Shown here in pieces: positions 23,659-32,503 of a stretch of DNA of 64,000 bases. Each line of letters opens with the position of its first letter. The stretch's first letter is position 1. The stretch covers positions 93,500 to 157,499 of the forward strand of contig NZ_JABEQF010000007.1 in assembly GCF_014174355.1 (NCBI RefSeq). The letters run 5' to 3'. Both the position numbers and the translations under genes were made by a program. The DNA is from Gluconacetobacter azotocaptans. Lineage in GTDB: Bacteria > Pseudomonadota > Alphaproteobacteria > Acetobacterales > Acetobacteraceae. Under the pieces are notes generated by a model. That model made no database searches. It saw nothing but the letters and a program-made list of their open reading frames with translations, and was not told where the DNA came from.

Positions 23659-24288
23659 TCAAACCACTCCCAGGTCCGGAATACCGGGCATGGTGACGAA
23701 GCCCGGCAGCGCCAGCATTCGGCGCATCCAGCGCCGCAGGGCGGGGAAGGCCTCGTGCCCGACCTCCCAGTCGCGGCTGAGGGCGAAGGCCGGGAACAGG
23801 GCGACATCCGCCACCGTCGGGCCGTCGCCCACGAACCACGGGCTGCCGTCCAGCCAGCGCAGGGCCAGATGATCCTCCATGATCCGCAGCGCGGCCGCCC
23901 CCTGACGGCGCAATCCATCGCGGTCGCCCGGCTCGCCGAACAGGAAGATGCGGCGTGCCCGTGTCGCCGCCGCCAGTGGCCCGCCCGCGAATTCCAGCCA
24001 GTGCGCGACCTCGGCAAAACCGCCCGGATCGCGCGGCAGCCATGTCTGCGTTCCATGCGCCAGCGCCAGCAGCGCCGCCCCTGCCCCGCAGACCTCCACC
24101 CCGGCGATCCGCAGCACGGGCAGCACGCCCGCCGGGCTGATAGCGCGGAAGGCCGGGCTGTCCTGCGCACCGCCCGGCACCACGTTCACCGCGACCATTC
24201 GGGCCTGACGCCCCAGCAGCGACAGGAACAGGCGGACGCGATAGCAATTTTCGTCCAGCACGTCGTCATGAAGCACAAGGTCGGTCAT
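23659..24288 (-). CDS. glutathione S-transferase-like protein (possible NdmE-type subunit)
   Basis: A 209-residue GST-fold protein: a thioredoxin-like N-terminal domain (LVLHDDVLDENCYRVRLFL, ISPAGVLPVLRIAGVEVCG) and an alpha-helical C-terminal domain with WFVGDGPTVADVALFP. It follows the Rieske protein with a four-base overlap, so the two are translationally coupled. In the P. putida CBB5 methylxanthine demethylase, a GST-like subunit (NdmE) scaffolds split oxygenase parts; coupling to a Rieske protein here suggests a similar structural role. An ordinary glutathione transferase is the alternative. Confidence 0.75.
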   Translation of the reverse strand: MTDLVLHDDVLDENCYRVRLFLSLLGRQARMVAVNVVPGGAQDSPAFRAISPAGVLPVLRIAGVEVCGAGAALLALAHGTQTWLPRDPGGFAEVAHWLEFAGGPLAAATRARRIFLFGEPGDRDGLRRQGAAALRIMEDHLALRWLDGSPWFVGDGPTVADVALFPAFALSRDWEVGHEAFPALRRWMRRMLALPGFVTMPGIPDLGVV

Positions 24289-25004
24289 GCCGCCGCCTCC
24301 GCGCCCTCGACCCGGTCGCGCAGATCCTGCCCCCAGGCCGCCACCCGCCGCCTTCGGTCCCGGTCGGCATCGGCGCCTCCCGGCCCGGCCACCAGCAGAT
24401 GCAGCATGCAGCGCGCCCGATCGACCGGCAGCACCGCCGCCAGGACCAGCCCGTCGATGTCACGGTCCAGCCCGCCCGCCCGGCTGCCGGCCGGCAGGCC
24501 GATGGCCTGTGCCACCTGCCGCGCCGGGGCCCCGATCGCCAGCGACCGCACGGGCACGCATTGTCCAGCAACGCCGGTGGCGGGGCCGTGCGCGGGCGTG
24601 TCGCCCAGGGCCACCCAGACCAGCCCGTCCTGTTCCGCCGCGACCAGCGGCGCAGCGCGCAACGTCGCCGGGGGCGACAGGTCGGGATGAGCGGGAATAT
24701 GGGCGCATCGTCCATCCGGCCCGAACCGCCAGCCATGATACAGGCACGCCAGCGCGCCGGCGCGCACGACCCCCAGGCTGAAGCGCATGCCCCGATGCGG
24801 GCAGCGATCGTCCCAGACATGCGCCCGCCCGTCGGCATCGCGCCAGACGGCCAGGTCGCGGCCCAGCACGGTACAGCCGGCCACCGTTCCCGGCTCCAGA
24901 TCCATCGACAGCATCAGCGGGTACCAGCCATCCCCCCGGGTGGCCCCCTCGCCCGTCTCTCCTGCCGGCGCGCCCCCGTGCGCCGGCTGCACCCGTTCGG
25001 CCAT
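24285..25004 (-). CDS. Rieske [2Fe-2S] protein with reduced catalytic region
   Basis: A protein of about 239 residues. The N-terminal half is a Rieske domain with all four cluster ligands in the order C-x-H then C-x2-H: Cys68, His70, Cys87 and His90 (CPHRG and CLYHGW). The C-terminal half resembles the oxygenase scaffold (VLAAVLPVDRARCML), but I find no D-x2-H-x4-H iron site, so it probably carries electrons rather than catalyses. I chose the inner ATG at 25004; a TTG at 25106 would overlap the divergent pncA-like start. It is coupled to the GST-like gene and diverges from the transporter operon. Confidence 0.8.
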   Translation of the reverse strand: MAERVQPAHGGAPAGETGEGATRGDGWYPLMLSMDLEPGTVAGCTVLGRDLAVWRDADGRAHVWDDRCPHRGMRFSLGVVRAGALACLYHGWRFGPDGRCAHIPAHPDLSPPATLRAAPLVAAEQDGLVWVALGDTPAHGPATGVAGQCVPVRSLAIGAPARQVAQAIGLPAGSRAGGLDRDIDGLVLAAVLPVDRARCMLHLLVAGPGGADADRDRRRRVAAWGQDLRDRVEGAEAAA

Positions 25005-25105
25005 CCCCCGCATCCTTCCACGCCCGTCCGTTGCGTCCCCCGATAGCCGGACGGGCAAAACCGTGCCATCCCTATCCCATCGCCACAATCCGCAGGAGGC
25101 CGACA

Positions 25106-25711
25106 ATGATCCAGATCACCGGTCACGACGCCCTTCTGATCATCGACGTGCAGAACGATTTCCTGCCGGGCGGCCCGCTGGCGGTGCCGGACGGCGATGC
25201 CGTCGTTCCGGTCATCAATCATCTGACCCGCCTGCCTTTCGGCCAGCAGGCCGCCAGCCAGGACTGGCATCCGCCCGGCCACGCGTCCTTTGCCGGCGCC
25301 CATCCCAAAGGCGCAGCCCCGGCCGGAACCTGGCCCGACCATTGCATCGCCGGCACGCGTGGGGCGGCACTGGCGGCAAGTCTGGACCAGACGCGCATCG
25401 GGCTGATCGTCCGCAAGGGCCGCGCGCCGGATGTCGACAGCTATTCCGCCTTCCTCGACAACGACCGCGTCACGCGCACCGGCCTGGAATACTGGCTGTC
25501 GGGCCTGGGGATACGCCGCGTCTTCGTCGCCGGCCTGGCGCTGGATTATTGCGTGGCCTTCACCGCCATCGACGCAAAGACCCTTGGTTTCGATACGTTC
25601 GTGGTCGAAGATGCCTGCCGTGGGATCGCCCCCGCGCCCGACGCCACCTGGCGCACCTTGGGCGGGCACGGCATCCACCGCGTACGCTCCGGCGATCTGG
25701 CGGGGGCCTGA
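25106..25711 (+). CDS. pncA: isochorismatase-superfamily amidase, PncA/nicotinamidase-like
   Basis: A 201-residue protein with the full nicotinamidase set: catalytic Asp14 (IIDVQNDFLPGG), Lys104 (VRKGRAPDVDSYSAF), Cys149 (LALDYCV), and the metal-site residues Asp53, His55 and His59 (QDWHPPGH). It converts nicotinamide to nicotinate in most relatives. The start has AGGAGG six bases upstream. It leads the operon with the BMP-family transporter, so a different heterocyclic amide substrate remains possible. Confidence 0.85.
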   Translation: MIQITGHDALLIIDVQNDFLPGGPLAVPDGDAVVPVINHLTRLPFGQQAASQDWHPPGHASFAGAHPKGAAPAGTWPDHCIAGTRGAALAASLDQTRIGLIVRKGRAPDVDSYSAFLDNDRVTRTGLEYWLSGLGIRRVFVAGLALDYCVAFTAIDAKTLGFDTFVVEDACRGIAPAPDATWRTLGGHGIHRVRSGDLAGA

Positions 25712-25770
25712 CCAGACCGGCGCGCACTGCAAACGGGGGAAGACCAACAGATGATCGTTCCGGATCGCGC

Positions 25771-26901
25771 ATGACCGGCCGGATGCCGCGGGGGCGGCTT
25801 CTGACACCGCGACGCCGCATGCTGGGGCTGGCTGCCGGGGCGGCAGGCTCCGCCCTGCTGCGCCCGGCTTCGGGACGGGCCACAGGGGCGCCACGCCTGC
25901 TGCCGCCGGTGGCCGAGGCCGATGCGCTGATCGCCTTCGGCCATACCGGCCCCATCACCGACGGCGGCTGGACCGCCGCGCACAACCAGGGCGTGCTGGC
26001 CGTCCGGCAGGCCTTTCCGCGCCTGCGCACCGTCTATGTCGAAAGCATCCCCTATTCCGCCGATGCGACGCGCATCTTCCGCCAGTTCGTGGCCGAGGGC
26101 GCGCAGATGGTCATCGCCACCTCGAACTATGGCGATTTCATCCGCGACGTGTCCGACCGCGCGCCCGAAGTGGCCTTCATGGAATGCGACGGCCACACCG
26201 TCACCGGCAATCTGGGCTGGCATTACATCACCCACTGGTACGCCAGCTACATCATCGGCATCGCCGCCGGACTGATGACCCGGACCAACCGGATCGGCTT
26301 CGTCGGCTCGTTCCCCATTCCCTCGGTCTATGCCGGGGCCAATGCCGTGCTGCTGGGCGCACGCACGGTCAATCCGGCGGTGCGTTTGCAGGCCATCTCG
26401 ATCAACGCCTGGTTCGATCCGCAGGCCGCGACGCAGGCGGGCACGGCACTGGCCGAAAACGGGTGCGACTTCCTGTGCGGCATCATGGACGAACCCGCCT
26501 ATCTGCGCGTGGCCCAGCAGCGCGGCATCAAGGCGGCGATGTGGAATACCGACATGCGGCAATACGGGCCCGACGCCTATGTCAGCTCGGTCATGCTCGA
26601 TTTCCGTTCGTTCTATATCGAACAGGTCCGCCGGCGTCTGGCGGGCACCTGGCAGGCGGCGCCCTGCTTCCTGCCGCTGGGCCACGGCGTGGACCGCGAC
26701 ACATGGGGCAGCAGCGTGCCGCCCGACATCGCACGCCAGGCCGATGCCATGCGTACGCGCATCCTGGGCGGCTACAACCCGTTCCAGGGCCCGATCCGCG
26801 ATGCCGCCGGGCGGATCAGGGTGCCCGCCGGCACCACGATGGACGACGACCATATCTACCAGTGGGACTGGGCGGTGGAAGGGGTCAGCGGCCTTGACTG
26901 A
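25771..26901 (+). CDS. BMP-family ABC transporter substrate-binding protein
   Basis: A 376-residue periplasmic binding protein of the basic membrane protein (PnrA-like) family, whose known members bind nucleosides or nucleobases. A twin-arginine-type leader (RRRMLGLAAGAAGSALL) suggests Tat export. Family landmarks are FGHTGPITDGGWTAAHNQG, YGDFIRDVSDRAPEVAF and GFVGSFPIPSVYAGANA, which lines the ligand pocket. It lies 59 bases after the pncA-like gene, and its stop overlaps the TTG start of the ATPase. Confidence 0.88.
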   Translation: MTGRMPRGRLLTPRRRMLGLAAGAAGSALLRPASGRATGAPRLLPPVAEADALIAFGHTGPITDGGWTAAHNQGVLAVRQAFPRLRTVYVESIPYSADATRIFRQFVAEGAQMVIATSNYGDFIRDVSDRAPEVAFMECDGHTVTGNLGWHYITHWYASYIIGIAAGLMTRTNRIGFVGSFPIPSVYAGANAVLLGARTVNPAVRLQAISINAWFDPQAATQAGTALAENGCDFLCGIMDEPAYLRVAQQRGIKAAMWNTDMRQYGPDAYVSSVMLDFRSFYIEQVRRRLAGTWQAAPCFLPLGHGVDRDTWGSSVPPDIARQADAMRTRILGGYNPFQGPIRDAAGRIRVPAGTTMDDDHIYQWDWAVEGVSGLD

Positions 26902-28483
26902 CGCACCCGCCCCCGGCGAAGCGCCGCCGCTTCCGCCCGGCACGCCGCCTCTCCTCCAGCTTATGGGGATCTCGAAATATTTCCCCGGCGTGATCGCCAA
27001 CGCGGATGTCAGCCTGGACGTCCGCCCGGGCGAAATCCACGCCCTTCTGGGCGAAAACGGCGCGGGCAAGTCCACGCTGATGAACATCGTCACCGGCATC
27101 TACCAGCCCGACGCGGGCGAGATCGTGCTGGACGGCTACACCCGCCACCTGGCCTCGCCGCAGGAGGCCATCCGGGCCGGCATCGGCATGGTGCACCAGC
27201 ATTTCAAGCTGGTGCAGGCCTTCACCGTGGCCGAGAACATCCATCTGGGCTGGCGCGACACGCCCGCCCGGGCCTCGACCAAAGCGCTGGAGGCCCGGAC
27301 CCGCGCCCTGTCCGAACGGTTCGGCTTCGCCGTCCGGCCCGATGCCCGGATCGCGGACCTGTCGGCCGGCGAGCAGCAGCGGGTCGAAATCCTGCGCGTG
27401 CTGGCACGCCGGGCCCGGCTGCTGATCCTGGACGAGCCCACGGCGGTCCTGACGCCCACCGAGGCACGCGACCTGTTCCGCGCCCTGCGCGCCTTCCGCG
27501 CCCAGGGCAACGCCGTCATCCTCATCAGCCACAAGCTGGACGAGGTCATGGACATCTCGGACCGGATCAGCATCCTGCGCGGCGGCCGCAAGATCGGCAC
27601 CTTCGCGACGGCGCACTGCACGCCCGCGATGCTGGCCCGGACCATGGTGGGGCGCGACATCGTCCGCCGCGACCTGCGCGCCCGCCCACCCGGCGCCGCC
27701 CCCGTGGCGGTCCGGCCGGTCATGAGCCTGCGCCACGTCACCACCCGCGACGAACGGGGGGTCGAGACCCTGCGCGACGTGACGCTGGACCTTCACGGCG
27801 GGGAAATCCTGGGCATCGCCGGCGTCGCGGGAAACGGCCAGCGCGAACTGACGCAGGTGCTGACGGGCCTGCTCCCCCCGGACGCCGGCGACGTCCTGCT
27901 GGACGGCGTGCCGGTCGGCGCACCCGACCCGGCGCATTTCGCCCGATCCGGCATCGGCCATATCCCCGAGGACCGGCTGCGCAGCGGCCTGGCCCCGTCG
28001 CTGGGCATCGCCGACAATATGGCGCTGCGTGAATATGACCGCCCCCCGATCGGCGGGCGCGGCGGCTACGCTCCACACGCGGCACAGGCCCTGGCGCGCC
28101 GGATCGCCGACGCGGCCGCCGTCCGCATTCCCGATTACGCCATGCCCATCCGCAACCTGTCCGGCGGCAACCAGCAACGCCTGGTCGCCCGGCGCGAAAT
28201 CCGGATCGCCGAGCGCATCCTGGTCGCCGCCTACCCCAGCCGGGGGCTGGACATCGGGGCCATCGCGACCGTGCTGGGCTACCTGACCGACCTGCGCGAC
28301 CGGGGCGTCGCCGTCGTCCTGGTGTCGGAGGATCTGGAGGAACTGCTGAATGTGGCCGACCGGATCGGCGTCCTGTTCCAGGGCCGCCTGATGGCCACCA
28401 TCGACGCCGCGACGGCGGACATGGAAACCATCGGCCTGCTGATGGGCGGCCGCACCGCCGCGCAGACCGGGGGGGCAATCTGA
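26894..28483 (+). CDS. BMP-type ABC transporter ATP-binding protein (two ATPase domains)
   Basis: A 529-residue protein with two ABC domains in tandem, as in sugar/nucleoside importers. The first has LLGENGAGKSTLM, the ABC signature LSAGEQQRVE and ILDEPTAVLTP; the second has a degenerate Walker A (GVAGNGQRELTQV), the signature LSGGNQQRLVARR and AYPSRGLDIGA. Such asymmetry is normal in the family. I chose TTG at 26894, eight bases inside the binding-protein gene; an ATG at 26963 would remove 23 residues before the first domain. The stop touches the next ATG. Confidence 0.9.
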   Translation: MTDAPAPGEAPPLPPGTPPLLQLMGISKYFPGVIANADVSLDVRPGEIHALLGENGAGKSTLMNIVTGIYQPDAGEIVLDGYTRHLASPQEAIRAGIGMVHQHFKLVQAFTVAENIHLGWRDTPARASTKALEARTRALSERFGFAVRPDARIADLSAGEQQRVEILRVLARRARLLILDEPTAVLTPTEARDLFRALRAFRAQGNAVILISHKLDEVMDISDRISILRGGRKIGTFATAHCTPAMLARTMVGRDIVRRDLRARPPGAAPVAVRPVMSLRHVTTRDERGVETLRDVTLDLHGGEILGIAGVAGNGQRELTQVLTGLLPPDAGDVLLDGVPVGAPDPAHFARSGIGHIPEDRLRSGLAPSLGIADNMALREYDRPPIGGRGGYAPHAAQALARRIADAAAVRIPDYAMPIRNLSGGNQQRLVARREIRIAERILVAAYPSRGLDIGAIATVLGYLTDLRDRGVAVVLVSEDLEELLNVADRIGVLFQGRLMATIDAATADMETIGLLMGGRTAAQTGGAI

Positions 28484-29553
28484 TGGCCCGCATCGTCCAG
28501 CGCCTGCCGTCGGTCTCGCCGGGGCGCGTCCTGGCGTGGCGGGTGGGCGCCGTCATCGCGGCACTGCTGCTGACCACCCTGTTCCTCGCCCTGTCGGGAC
28601 GCGACCCGGCGCTGCTGGCCGAACTGGTCGTGCGCTCGACCGTGGGGTCGCGCTTCGGGCTGGAGGATCTGGCCCTGTTCATGACGCCGCTGGTGCTGAC
28701 CGGCGCCGCCGTCACCGTCACCGGGCGGATCGGCATCTGGAATATCGGGGCGGAAGGCCAGTTCTATGCCGGGGCGATCGGCGCCGCCGGGATCGGCCTG
28801 TTCGTGCATGGGCCGGCCCTGCTGGTCCTGCCGCTGATGACGGTCTGCGGCGTGCTGTGCGGCATGGCGTGGATCCTGGTCCCGACCCTGGCCCGGGCCT
28901 ATGCGGGGGTGAACGAGATCATCACCACCCTGCTGCTCAATTTCGTGGCGGCGCTGCTGACATCCTATCTGGCGGTCGGGCCGTGGCATGACCGCGTGAC
29001 CGGCGCCCTGGCGTCGACCGCGCGGCTGCCCGTCGCAATCCCCGACCTCTGGGGCGTCGTGCATTGGGGCTTCCCGCTGGCGCTGGCGGTGGTGGCGGCA
29101 TTGGCGGCGACGCTGGACCGCACCCGCTGGGGCTACGAGGTCCGGATCAGCGGTGCCAACCCCGAGGCCGCGCGCTACGCCGGGATACCGGTGCGGGCGC
29201 GCATCGTGGCGGTCATGCTGCTGTCGGGCGCGCTGGCGGCCCTGGCCGGCGTGTCCGAGGTCGCCGGCACCGTCCATCGCCTGCAAGGAGGCATCGCCAA
29301 TAATTTCGGCTATTTCGGCATCGTGGTGGCGGTCCTGGCGCGCGGGTCGTGCCTGAACGTGCTGCCGGCAGCGCTGCTGATGGCCTTCATTCTCGATTCC
29401 GGCATCGTGCTGCAAACCCAGCAGCTGACGGCCTCCACGGTGCTGGCCATTACCGGCCTGGTCCTGTTCATGATCGCCATCGGCGACGAACTGGCCCATT
29501 ACCGCCCTGTCTCCACAAGCCGCCTCTCCACCAACAAGGGGGCCGCGCCATGA
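28483..29553 (+). CDS. BMP-type ABC transporter permease, subunit 1
   Basis: A 356-residue inner-membrane permease of the branched-chain/nucleoside type, with about eight to ten hydrophobic spans. Landmarks are GRIGIWNIGAEGQFYAGAIG (residues 82-101), the YAGVNEIITTLLLNFVA loop and SGANPEAARYAGI, the cytoplasmic coupling region. The ATG overlaps the ATPase stop by one base, and the stop overlaps the second permease as ATGA. Confidence 0.9.
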   Translation: MARIVQRLPSVSPGRVLAWRVGAVIAALLLTTLFLALSGRDPALLAELVVRSTVGSRFGLEDLALFMTPLVLTGAAVTVTGRIGIWNIGAEGQFYAGAIGAAGIGLFVHGPALLVLPLMTVCGVLCGMAWILVPTLARAYAGVNEIITTLLLNFVAALLTSYLAVGPWHDRVTGALASTARLPVAIPDLWGVVHWGFPLALAVVAALAATLDRTRWGYEVRISGANPEAARYAGIPVRARIVAVMLLSGALAALAGVSEVAGTVHRLQGGIANNFGYFGIVVAVLARGSCLNVLPAALLMAFILDSGIVLQTQQLTASTVLAITGLVLFMIAIGDELAHYRPVSTSRLSTNKGAAP

Positions 29554-30488
29554 TCGCCCTGCTGACCGGCATGCTGGCCACCGCCGTGCTGGCGGGCGGC
29601 GTGCTGGCGCTGGCCGCGCTGGGCGAGGTCCTGGCCGAACGGGTCGGCGTCACCAACCTGGGTGTCGAAGGCCTGATGTCCCTGGGCGCGGTCGTCGCCA
29701 TCATCACCGTCGCCGCGACCCCCAGTCCGTGGCTGGGCCTGCTGGCCGCCACGGCGGCGGGGACGGCCGGCGGCATGGTCTTCGCCTTCGCCGCCGTCAT
29801 CATGCGCGCCAACCAGGTGCTGTGCGGGCTGGCCGTCGCGTTCATGGGGCTGGGCCTGTCGGCGACCATCGGGCACGATTATGCCGGCATGCCCTCGCCC
29901 GCCACCTTCGGCCATGTGGCCATCCCGGTGCTGTCGGCTCTGCCGGTCGTCGGGCCGGCGATCTTCGCGCAGAATCTGCCGGTCTACCTGATCTATCTGG
30001 TGCTGCCGGCGGCGGCGCACTGGGTGATGTTCCACACGCGGCATGGGCTGAACATGCGCGCAGTCGGCGAAAACCCGGCGGCGGCCGACGCGGCGGGCAT
30101 CGCCGTCACGTCCATGCGGTTCTGGTACGTCACGCTGGGCGCGGGCCTGGCGGGGGCGGCCGGCGGCTACCTGACCCTGACCTACGTGCCCGTCTGGTCC
30201 GAAGGGCTGATCGCCGGGCGCGGCTGGATCGCGCTGGCGCTGGTGATCTTCGCCGGCTACCGCCCGTTCGCCGCCACGCTGTCCGGCCTGCTGTTCGGCC
30301 TGATCACCGCGCTGTCCTTCGTCGGGCAGGCCCGGAACTGGCCGATCGCGCCCGCGATCCTGAACATGCTGCCCTATCTGGGCACCATCGCCTTCATCAT
30401 CGTCCCGGTCGTCGTCTGGCACCGGATGCGCCGCGTCATGGCCGCGCCAGCGGCGCTGGGCGTCCCCTACCACCGCGACATCAGATAG
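29550..30488 (+). CDS. BMP-type ABC transporter permease, subunit 2
   Basis: A 312-residue partner permease: LAALGEVLAERVGVTNLGVEG at residues 24-44, NQVLCGLAVAFMGLGLS, VGENPAAADAAGIAV (coupling loop) and an AGRGWIALALVIFAGYRP segment. With the other permease, ATPase and binding protein it makes a complete importer of the NupABC/PnrABCDE kind. The stop is followed after nine bases by the oxygenase subunit gene, so uptake and oxidation appear to be on one message. Confidence 0.9.
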   Translation: MIALLTGMLATAVLAGGVLALAALGEVLAERVGVTNLGVEGLMSLGAVVAIITVAATPSPWLGLLAATAAGTAGGMVFAFAAVIMRANQVLCGLAVAFMGLGLSATIGHDYAGMPSPATFGHVAIPVLSALPVVGPAIFAQNLPVYLIYLVLPAAAHWVMFHTRHGLNMRAVGENPAAADAAGIAVTSMRFWYVTLGAGLAGAAGGYLTLTYVPVWSEGLIAGRGWIALALVIFAGYRPFAATLSGLLFGLITALSFVGQARNWPIAPAILNMLPYLGTIAFIIVPVVVWHRMRRVMAAPAALGVPYHRDIR

Positions 30489-30497
30489 GTGGAACGC

Positions 30498-31373
30498 ATG
30501 ACCGACACCCGCCACCCCGACCTCGCCGATCCCGACGACCGCGCGGTGCTGGATTGCTGGCACCCCATCGGCTTCCTGGACGGCATCGGCGCCCACCGCA
30601 CACACACGCGCCTGCTGGGCGTCGATCTGACGGCGCGGCGTCATCGCGACGGGGCGATCGTGGTGGGCGCCGCCGGACGAAGCGACCCTCTGCCGGTCGC
30701 CGAACGCTACGGCTGCCTGTGGACCAGCCTGGGCACGCCCCCCGCCGCCCCGCTGTCGATCCCCGACGCCGACGAACCCGACCGCCGCCTGGTCTGCTGC
30801 GGATCGGTCGAAGTCCATGCCTCGGGCCTGCGGGTGATCGAGAATTTCCTCGACATCGCGCATTTTCCCTTCGTCCATACCGGCATCCTGGGGGCCGAGC
30901 CCCAGACCGAAGTGGCCCGCTATCACACCGAAATCCGCCGCGACGTGGACGAAGTCTGGGCGACCGAATGCCGCTTTCACCAACCGCAGGCCGCCCATTC
31001 CTCCCACACCGGTGTCGAGGCGCAGTATGTCTACCGTGTCGCGTCGCCGTTCGTGACGCTGCTATACAAATCCTGCCCGAACGACCCCGTGCGCCCCGAC
31101 GTGATCGCCCTGTTCGTCCAGCCGACCGCGCCGGATCGCTGCCGCGCCCATCCGGTAATGTTCCTGATCGACGACGTGTCGCCCCAGGCGGACCTGATCC
31201 AGTTCCAGCAACGCATCTTCCTGCAGGACCGCATCATCCTGGAAAACCAGCGCCCGCGCCTGCTGCCGCTGGACCCGCGCGCCGAAATCCCCACTCGCGC
31301 CGATTCGCTGTCGGTCGCCTATCGGCGCTGGCTGAAGGAAAAACAGGTGCGCTACGGCGCCGTCCACACATAG
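30498..31373 (+). CDS. Rieske-type oxygenase catalytic subunit lacking the [2Fe-2S] segment (NdmC-like)
   Basis: A 291-residue protein resembling the alpha subunit of vanillate/N-methylxanthine demethylases. It has the mononuclear iron motif D-x2-H-x4-H in ENFLDIAHFPFVH (Asp119, His122, His127). The first 80 residues match the scaffold around a Rieske domain (WHPIGFLDG, then ERYGCLWTSLG), but the segment that should hold C-x-H and C-x2-H is missing, joining the scaffold directly. This is the arrangement described for NdmC (about 283 residues). ATG 30498 has AGGTGG upstream; a GTG at 30489 is also in frame. Confidence 0.8.
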   Translation: MTDTRHPDLADPDDRAVLDCWHPIGFLDGIGAHRTHTRLLGVDLTARRHRDGAIVVGAAGRSDPLPVAERYGCLWTSLGTPPAAPLSIPDADEPDRRLVCCGSVEVHASGLRVIENFLDIAHFPFVHTGILGAEPQTEVARYHTEIRRDVDEVWATECRFHQPQAAHSSHTGVEAQYVYRVASPFVTLLYKSCPNDPVRPDVIALFVQPTAPDRCRAHPVMFLIDDVSPQADLIQFQQRIFLQDRIILENQRPRLLPLDPRAEIPTRADSLSVAYRRWLKEKQVRYGAVHT

Positions 31374-31381
31374 CCGGCAGG

Positions 31382-32503
31382 TCAGGTGGGCCCCACCGGC
31401 AGCGACCAGTACTGGCCCGGCGCCTCGGCCTGCAGGACGTTGAAGCAGATCTTGCGGGCATAGGCCGACGACCCGACGGTGTCGGGCATCCGCCCCAGCA
31501 GCTTCATTTCGTCGACATATTGCGCCACCTGCACCCGCAGGTCGGCGCCCACCGGGCTGACGCCCAGCGTCTCGTGCCGCAGCATCGCGCGCAACTCGTC
31601 CGCCCCCATGCCGGCGATCTGCCCGGCCAGCAGGGTGGCCACCTGGTCCGGCTGGGCCTGGATCCAGCCCGACGCCGCGCGCAACGCCATCACCAGCGCC
31701 ACCGCCGCCGCCGGGTCGGATTGCAGGAAGGCGTCCGACAGGCCGAGTGCGAGGTTCGTGCGTTCGCCATAATGGCCGGTCGTGCTGTTCGCCAGTTCCG
31801 AAAACAGCGGATTGGGCCCGTGCAGAAGCTGCCACGCCAACGGGTCGTGCGCGACCACCGCGTCGATTTCGCCCCCGCGGGCCGCGTCCAGGACATGGTC
31901 GGGCGAGATGACGACCCATTGCACCCCGCTTTCGGGGTCGATGCCCTTGCGCCGCATCATCACCGAAAAAAACAGCCGGTCAGCCATGTCCCGGTCGGTG
32001 AAGGCGATTCGCAGGCCCGCGACATTGTCCAGGCGCGTCACCTTCACCCCCCGGCGCAACAGCAGCCTGAACGCCCCCGACTGCATGCCCGCGACGATTC
32101 GCGCCTGAAGCCCCCCTTCGCGAAACACGTCCAGCCACGTCAGAAGCGGTGCCACCGCGCCAACGCAGTGGCCGCCCCGCAGGTCGGCAATGGTGCCGCG
32201 CCCCGTGCGCGCACCCTCGACCGGCACGACATCCAGGTTGTAACGCTCGAAGAAACGCGCCCGCGCCACCGCGAAGACCAGTGTGTTGGACGTCGGCCAT
32301 GACAGGACCAGCCGGCGGAACCGGCCGTCCAACTGTGCCTTGTAGTAGGCCGGCGGGTGGCGGAACTGGTTGCGGATGACCAGGCCGGCCGTCACCGCCG
32401 CCCCCACGCCCGCCCCCGCGATCAAAGTGCGACGACGCAGCATCAGCCGTTCGGAATGCCCGCTGCCTTCGCCCATGCCGTTCTGCCCCACTCGTTTTCT
32501 CAC
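31382..32503 (-). CDS. NMT1/SsuA-like ABC transporter substrate-binding protein
   Basis: A 373-residue periplasmic binding protein of the NMT1/THI5/SsuA type, with a Tat-like leader (MLRRRTLIAGAGVGAAVTAG, residues 21-40) and landmarks FFERYNLDV, VAPLLTWLDV, NVAGLRIAFTDRD and AARGGEIDAVVAHDPLAW. Relatives bind taurine, sulfonates, nitrate or pyrimidine precursors. No permease or ATPase of its own is adjacent. It converges on the oxygenase subunit gene, nine bases apart. A GTG at 32503 and ATGs at 32476 and 32443 are possible starts; I list the outer one. Confidence 0.75.
   Translation of the reverse strand: MRKRVGQNGMGEGSGHSERLMLRRRTLIAGAGVGAAVTAGLVIRNQFRHPPAYYKAQLDGRFRRLVLSWPTSNTLVFAVARARFFERYNLDVVPVEGARTGRGTIADLRGGHCVGAVAPLLTWLDVFREGGLQARIVAGMQSGAFRLLLRRGVKVTRLDNVAGLRIAFTDRDMADRLFFSVMMRRKGIDPESGVQWVVISPDHVLDAARGGEIDAVVAHDPLAWQLLHGPNPLFSELANSTTGHYGERTNLALGLSDAFLQSDPAAAVALVMALRAASGWIQAQPDQVATLLAGQIAGMGADELRAMLRHETLGVSPVGADLRVQVAQYVDEMKLLGRMPDTVGSSAYARKICFNVLQAEAPGQYWSLPVGPT

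Follow-up and report, generated by a model that had tools for sequence, protein, structure and literature searches.

A 64,000-nucleotide stretch of DNA from Gluconacetobacter azotocaptans (assembly GCF_014174355.1, contig NZ_JABEQF010000007.1, positions 93,500-157,499; here called the window) encodes what appears to be an NdmC-type Rieske oxygenase carried on two genes, with one metal site on the product of each. Together with a GST-like helper, the two proteins, CAT (the catalytic subunit) and RSK (a stand-alone Rieske [2Fe-2S] protein), are predicted to form a single enzyme that likely N-demethylates an imported purine base. We put the probability of this reading at roughly 60%. The three proteins are best read as a variant of the NdmCDE N7-demethylase in which the Rieske protein stands alone; we infer the CAT-RSK-GST complex, the N-demethylation and the substrate from sequence.

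The genes are arranged on the two sides of a 92-bp gap. RSK and GST are to the left of the gap and overlap by 4 bp; to the right are a PncA-like amidase, the four genes of a BMP importer and CAT, whose start lies 9 bp beyond the second permease gene. The original prediction listed a GST, a Rieske protein, a catalytic protein without a Rieske domain, a PncA-like amidase and a complete BMP importer, and we found all of them between positions 23659 and 31373, each confirmed by domain matches (lengths are in amino acids, aa):

23659..24288, minus strand: GST-like protein, 209 aa, candidate NdmE-like helper subunit (Pfam GST_C, 39.1 bits)
24285..25013, minus strand: RSK, stand-alone Rieske [2Fe-2S] protein, 242 aa, a Rieske domain (PF00355, 79.7 bits) and a shrunken catalytic-domain relic
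25014..25105, no strand: intergenic region of 92 bp between the divergent starts of RSK and PncA, presumed to hold promoters
25106..25711, plus strand: PncA-like amidase of the isochorismatase family, 201 aa (Isochorismatase, 80.8 bits; NCBIfam PRK11609 nicotinamidase, 180.7 bits, cut-off 174)
25771..26901, plus strand: BMP/PnrA-type substrate-binding protein (Bmp PF02608, 100.4 bits)
26894..28483, plus strand: ABC transporter ATPase (PF00005 in two stretches, that is, two ABC domains)
28483..29553, plus strand: ABC permease 1 (PF02653, 100.7 bits)
29550..30488, plus strand: ABC permease 2 (PF02653, 115.7 bits)
30498..31373, plus strand: CAT, NdmC-type catalytic subunit, 291 aa (VanA_C PF19112, 72.1 bits; no Rieske match)

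The list of open reading frames had CAT starting at a GTG (30489) and RSK at a TTG (25106); the ATG codons at 30498 and 25013 are more likely and were preferred. The importer is complete for its type, with a Bmp binding protein, an ATPase with two ABC domains and two BPD_transp_2 permeases.

The metal sites of CAT and RSK are complementary. Above the Pfam cut-offs, CAT matched only VanA_C and RSK only the Rieske family. We compared both proteins across related loci, defined as the best 80 of 536 stretches encoding a CAT relative (tblastn E <= 1e-3). All 76 RSKs had the CxH/CxxH motif and none had DxxHxxxxH (0/76); all 80 CATs had DxxHxxxxH and none had CxH..CxxH (0/80). Residues D119, H122, H127 and D244 of CAT were invariant across 35 aligned sequences, and we take the DxxHxxxxH motif and the conserved distal Asp to be the 2-His-1-Asp iron ligands and the bridging Asp of the family. 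Neither CAT nor RSK qualifies as a one-chain alpha subunit, that is, a single polypeptide with both metal sites such as SxtT, NdmA or HpxD. In the usual Rieske oxygenase, both sites are found on each alpha chain (PMC12445004).

In the predicted folds, RSK and CAT each retained a relic of the half that is missing. The AlphaFold2 model of the last 221 aa of RSK had a mean predicted local distance difference test score (pLDDT) of 91.4. By sequence and by predicted fold, RSK and CAT alike had their best PDB relatives in SxtT and GxtA, which differ in that a single chain has both metal sites and in that their substrates, judging from the entry titles, are of the saxitoxin type. Within the catalytic-domain relic, one histidine was invariant in 31 of 31 aligned RSKs; it is residue 184 of the window RSK as aligned.

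CAT, RSK and GST correspond to the three proteins of NdmCDE. A tblastn search of plasmids with CAT led to a Pseudomonas putida plasmid (pTmex-577K) with an ndm-like gene cluster. It encodes an oxygenase of 284 aa without a Rieske domain, a protein of 588 aa that combines Rieske and reductase parts, a GST, a purine permease, a TIM-barrel protein, two more Rieske oxygenases and functions for handling formaldehyde. We took this to be an ndm cluster because the 588-aa protein is 81% identical to NDMD_PSEPU (UniProt), and all comparisons to Ndm proteins used these close homologues of the NdmC, NdmD and NdmE proteins of P. putida CBB5. CAT was 45.5% identical to the plasmid NdmC over 279 columns (95% of its length) and 48.7-48.9% identical to NdmC-like proteins encoded on plasmids from Klebsiella and P. 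fulva; five full-length Rieske oxygenases, HpxD among them, aligned with it over only part of the length, at 24-32% identity. The original prediction had staked its case on CAT not aligning best with another family that has its own Rieske protein, and CAT was indeed closer to NdmC than to the full-length oxygenases compared. The GST-like protein, which matches GST-family sequences, was 36.6% identical over 205 aa to the NdmE-type GST encoded on the Pseudomonas caffeine plasmid.

RSK was 40% identical to the N-terminus of NdmD over 120 aa. In a profile comparison (hhalign; 28 RSKs versus 17 NdmDs), the match covered NdmD residues 6-244 of 588 (228 columns, probability 100, E 7.2e-49). Because the match reaches this far, RSK is the counterpart of almost all of NdmD outside the reductase, and more than a Rieske fragment. 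The FMN/NADH/[2Fe-2S] reductase half of NdmD is absent from RSK, a protein of 242 aa with PF00355 alone, in agreement with the earlier description of a short, separate Rieske piece outside any NdmD-like reductase.

The split system shares with NdmCDE of P. putida CBB5 a Rieske-less catalytic subunit of ~285 aa, a Rieske domain on another chain and a GST-like third protein. NdmCDE was the first described case of a detached Rieske part (in 2015; PMC4408171). There, the Rieske part is fused to the reductase, whereas here it is free-standing, and the purine symporter of the Pseudomonas cluster contrasts with the BMP ABC importer found here and with the purine-deaminase-type neighbors of the relatives. 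Because the reductase fusion, a defining feature of NdmCDE, is absent, we do not class the split system as NdmCDE proper, even though it looks built to work like NdmCDE. The idea of a new layout of the NdmC/NdmD/NdmE principle was part of the original prediction and was borne out by sequence, predicted fold and co-occurrence.

The fused layout is also found next to BMP importers. Two Sinorhizobium records have a fused NdmD in the place of RSK and an adjoining BMP importer. These pSymA ndmC-ndmD-gst loci resemble the window in having an NdmC-like gene, a GST and a divergent BMP importer, and differ in keeping the fused 588-aa NdmD and, in the S. meliloti record, in having a tandem pair of NdmC-like genes. 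That record (L161:8977-13237) has one fused NdmD, one GST and the two tandem NdmC-like genes, with xanthine-dehydrogenase-family genes nearby. Homologues of ndmCDE in Sinorhizobium have been mentioned in print, and a genome survey of coffee-borer bacteria describes scattered ndm homologues.

The genes for CAT, RSK and GST occur together. In 76 of the 80 loci, both GST and RSK were no more than 10 kb from CAT, and all four importer parts were within the same distance in 61 of the 80, which argues that the clustering is not due to chance. The four loci with no nearby RSK and GST were from three Acetobacter and one metagenome-assembled genome at a contig edge, and in each of these genomes RSK and GST were side by side elsewhere; the metagenome-assembled genome had a second CAT beside its distant RSK-GST pair. 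In Rhizobium, Shinella and Agrobacterium, the genes were on one strand in the order RSK-CAT-GST-amidohydrolase-importer, with a 4-bp overlap between RSK and CAT in all three and overlaps of 4, 1 and 4 bp, respectively, between CAT and GST. Database names for these genes are uninformative (for example, 'aromatic ring-hydroxylating dioxygenase subunit alpha').

CAT and RSK were found in the same genomes. We searched 147 genomes, comprising the window's own genome and relatives, with cut-offs (CAT, E < 1e-60; RSK, E <= 1e-28) that were both chosen after the gaps were seen. CAT was present in 17 genomes, with a best match of 6e-27 in any other genome, and RSK was present in the same 17 and in 0 of the other 130. 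In 2 of the 17 genomes the RSK cut-off also picked up the Rieske domain of a full-length oxygenase, and six further genomes with CAT matches had full-length oxygenases at those places. These are the results of a co-occurrence check across Acetobacteraceae that the original prediction had called for. It had also held that the GST and Rieske genes should not be absent where the catalytic gene is kept, and neither was missing in any genome with CAT that we examined. Among the 80 loci, the RSK stretches aligned by BLAST were free of stop codons; three Gluconacetobacter RSK matches (G003, G008, G010) each had one in-frame TGA, possibly upstream of the real start. Based on sequence comparisons, the two-protein oxygenase occurs in acetic-acid bacteria and many rhizobia, and the free-standing Rieske layout is probably more common than the examined loci show, given the 536 stretches with a CAT relative.

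The split is compatible with the electron path of Rieske oxygenases. In ordinary members of the family, the cluster is ~12 A from the iron of the neighboring subunit, far closer than to the iron of its own chain (PMC12445004). Because the cluster is nearest to the neighbor's iron, two different chains could serve if RSK and CAT alternate around the ring; as alternating neighbors they would rebuild the cluster-to-iron path across two chains. The GST-like protein would hold RSK and CAT in register, by analogy with NdmE, which has been proposed to align the parts of NdmCDE (PMC4408171; PMC13237722) and whose role was postulated to be structural (PMC4408171). RSK would receive electrons from a separate protein, a donor that is needed because the reductase half is absent from RSK. 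The iron-bound oxidant would then hydroxylate an N-methyl group, most likely at N7 of 7-methylguanine or 7-methylxanthine, and this would release formaldehyde and a normal purine that could pass on to deamination and xanthine dehydrogenase.

The neighbors of the related genes point to purines. Of the 80 loci, 49 lie outside Acetobacteraceae and bear the importer; every one of these had one or more amidohydrolases of a purine-deaminase type within 10 kb. Among 85 loci, adenine-deaminase types were found in 42, guanine-deaminase types in 40 and 8-oxoguanine-deaminase types in 23, counted by similarity to one representative per type (at least 40% identity, partial matches included). Against the NCBIfam models, representatives reached 604-618 bits for 8-oxoguanine deaminase (cut-off 532) and 408-420 bits for guanine deaminase (cut-off 375), passing both; the adenine-deaminase-type representative was below its cut-off (349 versus 472.5 bits), and the R. 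johnstonii amidohydrolase, at 372 bits, was under that for 8-oxoguanine deaminase. The window's genome encodes xanthine dehydrogenase (XdhB, 1311 bits), and because of this, xanthine from demethylation could be used. The importer resembles PnrA/BMP-type importers in its substrate-binding protein, double ATPase and two permeases, and importer type by itself says little about the substrate. NCBIfam models for a putative B6 importer matched all four parts, all under cut-off, and we did not adopt that identity.

Based on these neighbors, the substrate is probably an N-methylpurine. The original prediction of a purine-like substrate had been drawn from the importer type; the deaminase genes beside the relatives strengthen that guess, and the substrate itself stays conjectural. 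NdmCDE acts on N7 of 7-methylxanthine (PMC4408171). Because of this site of action, and because guanine-type deaminases recur, we favor 7-methylguanine or 7-methylxanthine as a presumptive substrate. The full Pseudomonas caffeine route was rejected because no close NdmA or NdmB was found among the ten Rieske loci (3 kb each) of the window's genome.

Several results weigh against demethylation of a purine by a CAT-RSK-GST enzyme. No NdmD- or HpxE-type reductase was found in the 80 loci, which leaves a gap at the electron donor. In 19 of the 80 loci, several of them truncated at a contig end, no importer was near CAT, and deaminases were absent as well from 18 of the 19. None of the deaminase types searched for was beside the 12 Acetobacteraceae clusters, which have the PncA-like amidase instead. 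Among 16 amidohydrolase matches in the window's genome, the single one examined, beside XdhB, was a dihydropyrimidinase and not a guanine deaminase. In the ten Rieske loci of this genome, the best identity to NdmA or NdmB was ~30%, and NdmC relatives at 45% identity may have a different substrate. The CAT model had pLDDT below 50 at residues 124-135, which include one histidine of the iron motif, and at 253-268. Finally, a search of the window and seven related loci with Rfam did not find the xanthine (NMT1) riboswitch.

The search for the reductase was extended to whole genomes. The window's genome has three NdmD/HpxE-type reductase matches at E <= 1e-30, none of them near the cluster. Of the 17 genomes that have both CAT and RSK, 9 have a relative of the NdmD reductase at this cut-off; the best matches in the other 8 were 1.5e-13 to 7.6e-8. 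Because those matches are weak, the donor probably differs in kind or has diverged strongly, at least in these 8 genomes.

We considered whether the split oxygenase might instead hydroxylate a carbon of the purine ring, with no removal of methyl groups. HpxDE is a Rieske oxygenase system that acts in this way on hypoxanthine and xanthine (PMC7373994), HpxD is 30% identical to CAT, and purine-deaminase-type and xanthine-dehydrogenase-family genes surround the relatives. However, CAT is 45-49% identical to NdmC and is apart from HpxD in the tree, HpxD has its Rieske and catalytic domains in one chain with a reductase gene adjoining, and XdhB is already present in the window's genome. We consider ring hydroxylation unlikely. 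The same genome has a full-length Rieske oxygenase (L154:7998-9104, minus strand) that is 54% identical to RSK over the Rieske domain and 33% identical to HpxD; the start of the open reading frame beside it resembles, by eye, a FAD monooxygenase.

A somewhat less probable alternative is that an N-methylated pyridine, such as 1-methylnicotinamide, is imported and demethylated, and that the nicotinamide is then hydrolyzed by the PncA-like amidase. The PncA-like gene heads the importer genes, all 12 Acetobacteraceae loci have it no more than 10 kb from CAT, and its product was the only one of the genome's eight isochorismatase-family proteins above the cut-off of the nicotinamidase model. However, PncA was found in 0 of the 68 other loci, despite CATs that are 60-70% identical, and 50 of those loci had deaminases nearby. 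The gene may simply be the NAD-salvage enzyme, and NAD salvage alone would explain a sole nicotinamidase.

N-dealkylation is known for Rieske oxygenases, and many carriers belong to genera known to associate with plants, so a larger N-substituent might be removed; for example, loss of the N6 side chain of a cytokinin would give adenine for the adenine-deaminase-type enzyme encoded in 42 of the 85 loci. We think this very unlikely: the single such deaminase scanned reached 349 bits where the adenine deaminase model requires 472.5, no adenine-deaminase-type gene is present in the window's cluster, and a literature search for cytokinin degradation by Rieske enzymes gave nothing among the matches listed (best 12 of 2,193). 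There is even less to recommend RSK as a general Rieske ferredoxin for other oxygenases, with CAT using another donor and the neighborhood reflecting shared regulation and no complex, since, even with ten Rieske matches in the genome as possible users, CAT and RSK co-occur in the same 17 of 147 genomes, their genes overlap on the same strand in other genera and RSK is homologous to the part of NdmD held to serve NdmC.

In the tree of catalytic subunits, CAT and NdmC grouped together versus the full-length oxygenases (support 94/90), with stand-alone and fused layouts mixed inside the group; 15 of the 29 rows labeled stand-alone in this tree are database proteins whose neighborhood was not seen, and one full-length protein (ownRO) was on a very long branch. 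In the Rieske tree, NdmD formed one clade (100/100), the full-length oxygenases were on one side of a branch (97/93) and RSK was in between. A single RSK clade was not rejected (approximately unbiased test, p 0.345), so splitting and fusion may have come in either order. We offer a scenario that is possible and tentative: an oxygenase was duplicated, one copy lost its iron site (leaving a shrunken catalytic fold) and the other its [2Fe-2S] cluster (with the Rieske fold left empty), and activity would then require the mixed oligomer. It would take electrons from a donor not of the NdmD type and salvage methylated nucleobases (for example, 7-methylguanine) from decaying RNA in soil and plant tissue. 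On this view, the fused NdmD of the caffeine pathway would have arisen later, when a stand-alone Rieske subunit of this sort was joined to a reductase.

Two other features of the neighborhoods were observed. An NMT1-like substrate-binding gene (31382-32503, minus strand) is convergent with and directly behind CAT, and the same arrangement is found in loci L041, L047, L094, L115 and L117. The xanthine riboswitch has been associated with NMT1-like genes (PMC7373994); the Rfam search described above gave only tRNAs and two matches under the family gathering scores. In four loci (L059, L063, L066, L076) the cluster has a gene that looks, by eye, like an isopenicillin-N-synthase-type oxygenase, with no NCBIfam match at 1e-15, and a gene annotated as isopenicillin-N-synthase-type adjoins the ndm genes of the Klebsiella plasmid.

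Among the open-access papers listed in our searches (subscription papers were mostly outside the search), we recognized none that describes a free-standing Rieske partner, and passages of PMC12904279 and PMC10579966 gave no description of one either. The layout found here, in 76 loci, in the genomes of the four exceptions and in 17 Acetobacteraceae genomes, would be a second solution to the splitting of a Rieske oxygenase, one in which the Rieske part stands free. It exposes the reductase as the missing part in genomes that hold only weak NdmD-type candidates. It also makes two questions testable: whether the electron path between subunits is carried by mixed oligomers of complementary subunits, and by what means soil and plant bacteria recover nitrogen from methylated purines.

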